Shown: positions 6,481-44,860 of the stretch, piece after piece
How the letters are laid out: each line of letters opens with the position of its first letter
How positions within the stretch are numbered: position 1 is the first letter of the stretch
Source: Actinacidiphila alni
GTDB taxonomy: Bacteria; Actinomycetota; Actinomycetes; Streptomycetales; Streptomycetaceae
Direction of reading: 5' to 3'
NCBI RefSeq assembly: GCF_900112845.1
Contig: NZ_FONG01000009.1
Location: 124,001-188,000, forward strand
DNA length: 64,000 nucleotides
Notes under the pieces: model-generated
Seen by the model: only the letters and a program-made list of their open reading frames with translations
Told to the model about the DNA's origin: nothing
The model's database searches: none
Position numbers and translations under genes: made by a program

Positions 6481-7599
6481 ATGACAGACGCACTCAAGCG
6501 CCTCTCCGACGAAGGCGTCGCGATCTGGCTGGACGACCTCTCGCGCAAGCGGATCACGTCCGGGAACCTGGCCGAACTCATCGACCAGCAGCATGTGGTG
6601 GGTGTCACCACCAACCCGTCGATCTTCCAGAAGGCGATCTCGCAGGGCGACGGCTACGACCAGCAGCTCGCGGACCTCGCGGCCCGCAAACTCACCGTCG
6701 ACGAGGCGATCCGGATGATCACCACCGCCGACGTACGGGACGCGGCCGACATCCTGCGCCCGGTCTTCGACGCGACCGACGGACAGGACGGCCGGGTCTC
6801 CATCGAGGTCGACCCGCGGCTCGCCAACAACACCAGGGCCACCGTCGCCGAGGCCAAGCAGCTGGCCTGGCTGGTGGACCGGCCGAACACGCTGATCAAG
6901 ATCCCGGCCACGCCCGCCGGGCTGCCCGCGATCACCGAGGTCATCGGCAAGGGCATCAGCGTCAATGTGACGCTGATCTTCTCGCTGGAGCGCTACCGCG
7001 GTGTGATGGACGCCTACCTCTCCGGCCTGGAGAAGGCCAAGGCCGCCGGCCTCGACCTGTCGCAGATCCACTCGGTGGCGTCCTTCTTCGTGTCCCGGGT
7101 GGACACCGAGATCGACAAGCGGCTGGAGAAGCTGGGCTCCGACGAGGCCAAGGCGCTCAAGGGCAAGGCGGCCGTCGCCAACGCGCGGCTGGCCTACCAG
7201 GCGTACGAAGAGGTCTTCGGCTCCGAGCGCTGGCTGGCGCTGGAGAAGGCCGGGGCCAACAAGCAGCGTCCGCTGTGGGCGTCGACCGGCGTCAAGGACC
7301 CGGCCTACCCCGACACGCTGTACGTCACCGAGCTGGTCGCGCCGAACACGGTCAACACCATGCCGGAGGCCACCCTCGACGCCACCGCCGACCACGGCGA
7401 GGTGACCGGCGACACCGTGCACGGCACGTACGAGCAGGCCAAGGCGGAGCTGGACGCCATCGCGGCGCTCGGCATCTCGTACGACGACGTGGTGCAGCAA
7501 CTGGAGGACGAGGGCGTGGAGAAGTTCGCCGCGGCCTGGAACGAGCTGCTGGACTCCACCAAGGCGGAACTCGAGCGGCTCGCCCCCTCGGAGGTCTGA
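6481..7599 (+). CDS. tal: Transaldolase
   Basis: Transfers dihydroxyacetone units between sedoheptulose-7-P and glyceraldehyde-3-P via a Schiff base. The catalytic lysine lies in [16 protein letters not shown]. The early motif [13 protein letters not shown] and the [16 protein letters not shown] block place it in the actinobacterial 370-residue transaldolase group (372 aa). A strong Shine-Dalgarno (TAGGAGATG) precedes the ATG. Its stop codon is one base before the zwf start, implying cotranscription and probable translational coupling. Confidence 0.96.
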
Positions 7600-7600
7600 G

Positions 7601-9139
7601 TTGTCGACGCAGACATCGCCGGAAGGCAACCCGCTCCGGGACCCACTGGACCGGCGGCTGCCGCGCATCGCGGGGCCGTCAGGTCTGGTCATCTTCGGTG
7701 TGACGGGCGACCTGTCCCGCAAGAAGCTGATGCCGGCCGTGTACGACCTGGCCAACCGCGGCCTGCTGCCGCCGGGCTTCGCCCTGGTCGGCTTCGCCCG
7801 CAGGCAGTGGGAGAACGAGGACTTCGCGCAGGAGGTCCACGACGCGGTCAAGGAGCACGCCCGCACCCCTTTCCGTGAGGAGGTGTGGCAGCAGCTCGCC
7901 GAGGGCTGCCGCTTCGTGCAGGGCGACTTCGACGACGACACCGCCTTCGAGACGCTGAAGGCGACCATCGAGGAGCTGGACAAGGCGCGCGGTACGGGCG
8001 GCAACTTCGCCTTCTACCTGTCGGTGCCGCCGAAGTTCTTCCCCAATGTGGTGCAGCAGCTCAAGAAGCACGGGCTGTCCGAGGGCACCGGGGACTCCTG
8101 GCGGCGCGCGGTCATCGAGAAGCCGTTCGGCCACGACCTGGCCAGCGCGCAGCAGCTCAACCAGATCGTGCACGAGGTCTTCCCGCCCAACGAGGTCTTC
8201 AGGATCGACCACTACCTGGGCAAGGAGACCGTCCAGAACATCCTGGCGCTGCGCTTCGCGAACACGATGTACGAGCCGATCTGGAACCGGTCGTACGTCG
8301 ACCACGTGCAGATCACCATGGCCGAGGACATCGGCATCGGCGGCCGCGCCGGGTACTACGACGGCATCGGCGCCGCGCGCGACGTGATCCAGAACCACCT
8401 GCTGCAACTGCTGGCGCTGACCGCGATGGAGGAGCCCGGCTCCTTCCACCCCAAGGCGCTCACCGCGGAGAAGCTGAAGGTGCTCAGCGCCGTCGTGCTC
8501 CCCGACGACCTCGGCAAGAACACCGTGCGCGGCCAGTACGCGCACGCCTGGCAGGGCGGCGAGGAGGTGCTCGGGTACCTGGAGGAGGACGGCATCGACC
8601 CCAAGTCCAAGACCGACACCTACGCGGCCGTCAAGCTGGAGATCAACAACCGGCGCTGGGCGGGTGTGCCGTTCTACCTGCGCACCGGCAAGCGGCTGGG
8701 CCGCCGGGTCACCGAGATCGCGGTGGTCTTCAAGCGGGCGCCGTACCTGCCGTTCGAGTCCGGGGCGACCGAGGAGCTGGGGCAGAACGCCCTGGTCATC
8801 CGGGTGCAGCCGGACGAGGGCGTGACGGTGCGGTTCGGTTCCAAGGTGCCCGGCACCTCGACCGAGGTCAGGGACGTGACGATGGACTTCGCGTACGGCG
8901 AGTCCTTCACCGAGTCCAGCCCCGAGGCGTACGAGCGGCTCATCCTGGATGTGCTGCTCGGCGACGCCAACCTCTTCCCGCGTCACCAGGAGGTCGAGAT
9001 CTCCTGGACCATCCTCGACCCGATCGAGGAGTACTGGGACAAGCACGGCAAGCCCGCCCAGTACGCGTCCGGGACCTGGGGACCGGCCGAGGCGGACGAG
9101 ATGCTCGCACGAGACGGCAGGAGCTGGCGCCGGCCATGA
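7601..9139 (+). CDS. zwf: Glucose-6-phosphate 1-dehydrogenase
   Basis: First enzyme of the oxidative pentose-phosphate pathway (glucose-6-P to 6-phosphogluconolactone, making NADPH). The 512-aa protein has the nucleotide-binding GVTGDLSRKKLMP motif and the active-site RIDHYLGKE signature. The start is a rare TTG one base after the tal stop. It is accepted because the following residues lead straight into the conserved LPRIAGPSGLVIFG and because the tal stop is so close. The stop codon overlaps the ATG of opcA (ATGA). Confidence 0.96.
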   Translation: MSTQTSPEGNPLRDPLDRRLPRIAGPSGLVIFGVTGDLSRKKLMPAVYDLANRGLLPPGFALVGFARRQWENEDFAQEVHDAVKEHARTPFREEVWQQLAEGCRFVQGDFDDDTAFETLKATIEELDKARGTGGNFAFYLSVPPKFFPNVVQQLKKHGLSEGTGDSWRRAVIEKPFGHDLASAQQLNQIVHEVFPPNEVFRIDHYLGKETVQNILALRFANTMYEPIWNRSYVDHVQITMAEDIGIGGRAGYYDGIGAARDVIQNHLLQLLALTAMEEPGSFHPKALTAEKLKVLSAVVLPDDLGKNTVRGQYAHAWQGGEEVLGYLEEDGIDPKSKTDTYAAVKLEINNRRWAGVPFYLRTGKRLGRRVTEIAVVFKRAPYLPFESGATEELGQNALVIRVQPDEGVTVRFGSKVPGTSTEVRDVTMDFAYGESFTESSPEAYERLILDVLLGDANLFPRHQEVEISWTILDPIEEYWDKHGKPAQYASGTWGPAEADEMLARDGRSWRRP

Positions 9140-12681: not shown

Positions 12682-12718
12682 CAGTCCACTTCTCCTCGTC
12701 CTCGCTGCACGCCCCACG

Positions 12719-13966
12719 CTAATTGATGACGCGCCGGAACGAGACGAGGGCGGGTATCAGCGCACCCGACGCGCAGGTGAACAATGCGGCGGCGACCAGC
12801 GCCGGGGCGTTCAGCCCCCAGGCGGAGGCGGCGGCCCCGCCGAGCAGCGCGCCCAGTGGGGCACCGGCCACCGACAGGGTGCGGTTGGCGGCGCTGACCC
12901 GGCCCAGCAGGGCCATGGGGGTGCGTTCCTGGAGCAGTGTCACCTCGCTCACGTTCCATACCATGCCGAGGGCGCCGAATACGGCCATCACGGTGATCGC
13001 GGCGGGCAGCGACCGCACGCTGCCGAGGACGGCCAGGCAGCCGGTCTGCACCAGCAGTCCCGCGGCGAGCGCCCGGGCGGTGCCCAGCCACCGGCCGAGC
13101 CGTCCGGCGACGGCGCCGCCGAGCACGCTGCCGATGCCGTAGGCGGTGATGACGGCGGCGAAGCCGCCGTGCCCGGCGTGCAGCCAGCCGGTCACCTGGA
13201 GGACGAGGGTGGCCACCAGGGCGCCGACGCCGATGTTGGCGGTGGTGTTGGCCGCGCACAGCGACCGCAGCACGCGGTCCCGCCACAGCGTCCGCAGGCC
13301 CTCGGCCATGTCGCGGCGCAGGGTGCGGCCCGCCGGTCGCGGCGGGCGCTCCCGTACGGGTATCGGCAGCGAGGCGACCAGGGCCGCGGCGACGGCGAAG
13401 CTGGCGGCGTCCACCGCGAAGGGGGCGCCGGCGGACAGCGCGAGCAGCGCCGCCACCAGGGGCGCGGCGATGAAGGCGCTCGCGATGGTCTGGCCGGTCA
13501 TCAGGCGGGAGTTGGCCCGGCCGAGGACGGTGGTGGGCACGACGGCGGGCAGCAGGGCGGTGGCCGCGTTGTCGAAGAGGGTCTGGAGCGTGGTGAGCGC
13601 GAAGGCGAGGACGAGCAGCAGCGTGATGCTCGCGTGCCCGAGCGCCACGGTGAGCGCGAACGCGCCGGTGAGCAGGGCGCGTACGGCGTCCACCGAGCGC
13701 ATCGCGCGGCGCTGGTCGACCCGGTCGGCGACGGCGCCGCCGAGCAGCCCGAAGACGGTCCACGGCAGATAGCCCGCGGCGGTGACCAGGGAGATCAGCA
13801 GCGGATTCGTGGTCAGGGAGGTGGCGAGCAGCGGCAGTGCGGCGCCGCGCAGGCCGTCGCCGAAGCGGGAGACGACCGCGGCGCTCCACAGCCGTCCGAA
13901 GCCGCCGCGCCAGGGCAGCGCGGCGGTTTCGGCGAGCGCGGACGGCTCGGTCGCGTCGACGGACAT
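12719..13966 (-). CDS. MFS transporter (drug-efflux type), candidate DNA-damage-inducible
   Basis: A 415-aa polytopic protein of the major facilitator superfamily, MFS_3/enterobactin-exporter-like. About 12 hydrophobic segments are visible, with the loop motif [18 protein letters not shown] between spans 2 and 3 and a repeat of it in the second half ([13 protein letters not shown]). The substrate is unknown; relatives export drugs or siderophores. ATG 13966 has AGGGGGAGCC before it. A GTG at 14014 in the same frame lies eight bases after a perfect RecA-NDp-type promoter and could be a leaderless start adding 16 residues. It lies just upstream of pgi in the same direction (37-bp gap). Confidence 0.85.
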
Positions 13967-14022
13967 GGCTCCCCCTGGCCGGTTCTCCCGGTGTCCGATC
14001 ACCGTGGTGATCACTTCCGAGG

Positions 14023-14045
14023 ACCGTAACGGCCGCCACTGACAA
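14023..14045 (-). promoter_or_regulatory. Perfect RecA-NDp (PafBC-type) promoter before the MFS gene
   Basis: On the minus strand TTGTCAGTG (14045-14037) is followed by exactly eight bases and TACGGT (14028-14023). This matches every specified position of the actinobacterial RecA-independent DNA-damage promoter TTGTCRGTG-N8-TANNNT. The predicted start of transcription falls at about 14015, next to an in-frame GTG. Function is inferred from the motif alone. Confidence 0.72.
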
Positions 14046-44837: not shown

Positions 44838-44860
44838 ACCGTACGACCCCCCACTGACAA
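44838..44860 (-). promoter_or_regulatory. Perfect RecA-NDp (PafBC-type) promoter of uvrB
   Basis: On the minus strand TTGTCAGTG (44860-44852), eight bases, then TACGGT (44843-44838), then six bases to the uvrB ATG. It matches every specified position of TTGTCRGTG-N8-TANNNT. The geometry places +1 at about the A of the start codon. Confidence 0.78.

Follow-up and report, generated by a model that had tools for sequence, protein, structure and literature searches.

The 64,000-nucleotide stretch of DNA analysed here (the window) carries, ahead of a gene for an MFS exporter, what is almost certainly a genuine promoter of the RecA-NDp/PafBC type: it is conserved and appears to belong to the exporter gene. 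An exact-pattern search of the window reads TTGTCAGTGGCGGCCGTTACGGT on the minus strand (14045..14023), that is, TTGTCAGTG-N8-TACGGT, with the ATG of the exporter gene 56 nt downstream. The -26 element agrees exactly with TTGTCRGTG, and the 8-nt spacer and -10 element with the TAnnnT form of the published consensus (tTGTCRgtg - 8 nt - TAnnnT, quoted in PMC5656591). The perfect damage-type motif claimed for 14023-14045 in the first-pass annotation is thus present, as is the copy said to be shared with uvrB: a perfect match lies at 44860..44838, 6 nt ahead of the uvrB ATG. No SOS box (GAACnnnnGTTC, at most one mismatch allowed) occurs between 3930 and 14954, the region around the site, and SOS (LexA) co-regulation of the pump was rejected on this ground. 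That the element is the real promoter of the pump gene is argued by its conservation among orthologues, its absence where the pump is absent, a variant in a second family, and the presence of genes for PafB and PafC. Details of the features are given in Table 1.

Table 1. Coordinates of the promoter, the exporter gene and associated features in the window.
Feature	Positions	Strand	Evidence
-26 element TTGTCAGTG, PafBC/RecA-NDp recognition half	14037..14045	-	exact match; kept in 80/80 orthologous loci
-10 element TACGGT, 8 nt from the -26 element	14023..14028	-	exact match
Untranslated leader, ~50 nt, including the rejected GTG candidate 14014	13967..14022	-	in-frame stops in 37/79 orthologues
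Shine-Dalgarno-like AGGGGGAG ahead of ATG 13966	13969..13976	-	Shine-Dalgarno-led in-frame start in 75/80 orthologues
MFS exporter gene, 415 aa, DHA3-like	12719..13966	-	Pfam MFS_1, best NCBIfam match TIGR00900, MFS-fold model
Putative pgi promoter block TCGTTCCGGCGCGTCATCAATTAGCGTGGGG, overlapping the MFS gene 3′ end and stop codon	12711..12744	-	conserved ahead of pgi
Second perfect promoter copy, ahead of uvrB	44838..44860	-	uvrB ATG 44831, 6 nt past the -10 element

Conservation of the promoter with the pump

Conservation was examined in 80 fetched Streptomycetaceae loci coding for an orthologous MFS protein, all but two of them titled Streptomyces. The motif is kept shortly upstream of the pump in every one: 75 have the strict form, 79 match when the first base is left free, and the last (L028, which reads TTGTCAGTC) needs one further mismatch. 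The first-pass annotation had named lack of conservation at orthologous loci as grounds for refutation, and its claim withstood this check. Within the fetched 549 kb the strict motif is found at pump-upstream sites only, with no match on the other strand. When the 80 loci were reduced to 24 with flanks less than 50% identical, motif columns (some of them fixed by the search pattern itself) carried 1.3-2.0 bits as against mostly 0.1-0.6 bits (~0.3) in the flanking columns. In a separate whole-genome sample, all 34 further orthologues from the family have the motif.

The pump is accessory, since only ~54 of 298 family genomes carry the gene at an identity of at least 58%. In same-genus genomes without it the motif is missing from the locus (20/20). 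One close relative (L167, with a pgi gene 96% identical) retains an apparent remnant of the MFS 3′ end, which suggests that pump gene and promoter were deleted together.

A second actinobacterial family, f21, possibly the Micromonosporaceae, supplies 13 orthologues of 54-60% identity, all with a TTGTC/CTGTC-type variant of the motif directly at the start of the gene. Most read TTGTCGGACC-N7-TA..GT, two have an exact TTGTCGGTG and one has CTGTCGGAG; the ATG usually follows 6-10 nt downstream. The variant fits the damage promoter of that lineage, because in one f21 genome the TTGTCGGACC form stands ahead of a RadA-like gene (radA) and TTGTCGGTG ahead of recA. In a phylogenetic tree the motif-bearing pumps from the two families group as a single clade (100/99), the only member of which scored as having no motif (L227) is the CTGTCGGAG form; the paralogues examined are without motif.

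Start codon, activator and target gene

The first-pass annotation placed a damage-type promoter ahead of an efflux-type MFS gene and had the protein translated, leaderless, from a GTG at 14014. The first part is strongly supported; the second fails on the orthologues. The GTG is in frame and lies 8 nt past the -10 element, many genes of the regulon start 6-10 nt past it, and f21 orthologues, for which the sequences make leaderless translation likely, mostly have an ATG at that distance. However, an open in-frame start is available between +5 and +11 in only six of the 80 Streptomycetaceae orthologues, against 75 in which a purine-rich Shine-Dalgarno sequence leads a start further down; in-frame stops separate motif and gene in 37 of 79, and the nearest orthologues examined (L016-L018) lack the GTG. 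We therefore prefer ATG 13966, the equivalent start in the window with AGGGGGAG upstream, and regard the GTG as an unlikely start.

The company that the motif keeps in the home genome bears on which activator reads it. Base composition (72.3% GC) predicts ~1.4e-5 occurrences of the exact 15-base pattern in the window and 0.002 in the genome; a shuffle test on the window is uninformative on exact matches because it tolerated 3 mismatches. Pattern searches of the 8.27-Mb home genome found 15 sites for TTGTCAGTG-N8-TANNNT (~0.04 expected) and 37 for the relaxed NTGTCRGTG-N8-TANNNT (~1 expected), the reversed-pattern control returning none in either case. Most sites of the relaxed form lie shortly upstream of open reading frames, often with a start codon 6-10 nt past the -10 element. 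The genes behind motif sites, identified through family searches or from their sequence, include recA, uvrB, ung, dnaX and those for a UvrD-type helicase, a DinG-like helicase, a family-A polymerase (polA-like), an AlkZ-like glycosylase, a PD-(D/E)XK nuclease, an exonuclease-BRCT protein, a HelY-type helicase and a SWIM protein: by these assignments, the repair set expected of a mycobacterial PafBC response. The motif is likewise found ahead of two ABC transporter genes, one for a complete exporter (L159:1554-3200, G000:C44) that starts 8 nt past the -10 element, the other for an ABC ATPase (L110:1501-2436, G000:C16) that starts at +44. Among same-genus genomes, 16 of 24 retain the motif at the orthologue of the former and 15 of 25 at that of the latter, weaker conservation than that of the MFS gene.

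Two further sites are of separate interest. Between the SWIM-domain gene and a divergent gene (L007 / L113, G000:C19:289206) two opposed TTGTCAGTG elements lie close together, possibly as a two-way damage promoter. Elsewhere, an ECF-type sigma factor with a SnoaL domain (L115:1530-2558, G000:C22) has a leaderless-type start 7 nt past a strict motif, which suggests a sigma cascade downstream of the damage response.

The home genome also contains pafB and pafC, a pair of neighbouring WYL-family genes (L187:8332-9270 and 7360-8316) beside pafA. Genes for PafB, PafC, PafA, TatC and a HelY-type helicase are clustered there, the WYL genes recognised by model and the others named from their sequence. 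In this neighbourhood a relaxed damage-type motif lies ahead of the HelY-type helicase gene (L187 ~4245, G000:C9:12245), and the Pup-proteasome/PafBC locus includes another MFS gene (L187:12450-13706, minus strand), directly upstream of pafA. Mycobacterial PafBC is switched on by single-stranded DNA and equips the housekeeping polymerase to use promoters that have a -26 element (PMC11804915). We consider it highly probable that PafBC regulates the pump promoter. Because the switch of the repair genes is kept at all 80 loci and in the second family, the pump is very probably made upon DNA damage; both damage induction and PafBC dependence are what we infer for it.

It has been reported, as cited in PMC5656591, that ClgR binds the same P1 motif in mycobacteria, and PafBC control in Streptomyces is putative. 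The motif might thus be read by another activator such as ClgR, or transcription might be constitutive rather than part of a damage response. We hold this to be quite improbable: the same motif stands ahead of recA and many repair genes in the home genome, which has both PafB and PafC genes, and a RecA-NDp promoter is reported in S. coelicolor at the UV-inducible SCO6735 (PMC5087735). A 2022 study of S. venezuelae reported that, in a motif search, the PafBC motif of M. smegmatis did not seem to be conserved, and regarded a RecA/LexA-independent response as still to be demonstrated (PMC9380542). The sites described here argue that the family does have promoters of the RecA-NDp/PafBC class.

The promoter could also serve the next gene. 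pgi (glucose-6-phosphate isomerase) begins 37 nt past the MFS stop and is read the same way, there is no terminator-like site between the two genes, and their order is kept in 79 of the 80 loci; an MFS-pgi operon might then redirect carbon during damage with the pump as passenger. This reading is very improbable, and pgi was rejected as the true target on the evidence of the pump-less relatives and of f21. All 20 same-genus genomes that lack the MFS gene have pgi without the damage motif but with its own conserved upstream block, and MFS-bearing genomes retain this block at the MFS stop. Neither pgi nor any other window neighbour was found near the f21 pumps, which nonetheless have the promoter, and L059 has the pump without pgi. 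In the window (12744..12711, minus strand) the final MFS residues and the stop codon are encoded within the pgi upstream block, and the MFS stop codon of most relatives (TGA or TAG) also falls inside it.

That the motif is a chance likeness, or a short intergenic stretch conserved neutrally, has next to no probability: although the fetched loci are related by descent, and so are not 80 independent trials, this reading is contradicted by a near-invariant motif amid flanks less than 50% identical, by an expectation of ~0.001 chance hits in 80 loci, and by recurrence across families.

The pump and its proposed role

The efflux-type MFS protein announced by the first-pass annotation is borne out at the level of the superfamily: Pfam MFS_1 scores 87.7 bits against a gathering cut-off of 33.4. 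The best NCBIfam match, and closest subfamily, is TIGR00900 ('H+ antiporter'), at 178.5 bits against a cut-off of 319.6; on its sequence the pump is DHA3-like only. Searching solved structures by sequence brought up nothing relevant. The structure model, a confident one (pLDDT 85), matches the folds of NorA, SotB, MdfA and VMAT and also those of sugar-phosphate transporters, so that transport direction and substrate are read from the sequence family alone. From that family the protein would work as an exporter; a mutagen or antibiotic is a plausible substrate, and export of a genotoxin is a tentative assignment, somewhat short of an even chance.

The mechanism that we propose, and as a whole consider probable, is that of a PafBC-type promoter driving a DHA3-like pump as its own transcription unit. 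Upon damage, single-stranded DNA would accumulate and the WYL heterodimer PafBC would act, helping the housekeeping RNA polymerase to recognise TTGTCAGTG (-26) and TACGGT (-10). Transcription would start near 14016, giving an mRNA leader of ~50 nt and a unit comprising the exporter gene (13966..12719), translated from ATG 13966 through AGGGGGAG. The pump would probably export the DNA-damaging compound itself or a toxic damage product, working alongside the repair enzymes of the same regulon.

A wider and still more tentative idea is that the actinobacterial PafBC-type response has an export arm, made up of the MFS pump clade (two families, always behind a damage promoter) and the two ABC transporters, which would clear genotoxins or damage products during repair. 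In producers of DNA-damaging antibiotics, a pump wired to the DNA-repair switch would link damage sensing directly to toxin export. The conserved promoter set also makes the RecA/LexA-independent damage response in Streptomyces, left unsettled by the 2022 S. venezuelae study, directly testable.

Relation to known systems

With the DHA3-type MFS exporters (TIGR00900; Mef(A), Tap, Tet(V), EntS) the pump shares its best family matches, the MFS_1 domain and an 11-letter protein motif, but for every one of these NCBIfam models its score falls short of the curated cut-off. To the drug/proton antiporters NorA, SotB and MdfA it is similar in the overall fold of the model (TM-score 0.73-0.79), but at ~15% identity and in a fold common to transporters of other substrates.

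Among promoters, those of RecA-NDp type known in Streptomyces (recA of S. rimosus, the macrodomain protein SCO6735 of S. coelicolor, and the 67 S. coelicolor genes with related motifs reported by the computational SIGffRid study, PMC2375139) have the same motif in the same lineage. They differ in that the main texts make no mention of the pump, which the supplementary tables may list; in the main texts of the literature on damage-induced MFS efflux and PafBC, supplementary gene tables aside, we likewise found nothing on it. The RecA-NDp/PafBC promoters of Mycobacterium resemble the present one in both elements, in their spacing, in being found at recA, uvrB and further repair genes, and in the presence of pafB and pafC; the difference is that the target here is an exporter, with induction and PafBC binding predicted for this lineage. 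The pump is a further member of this known kind of RecA-NDp/PafBC regulon.
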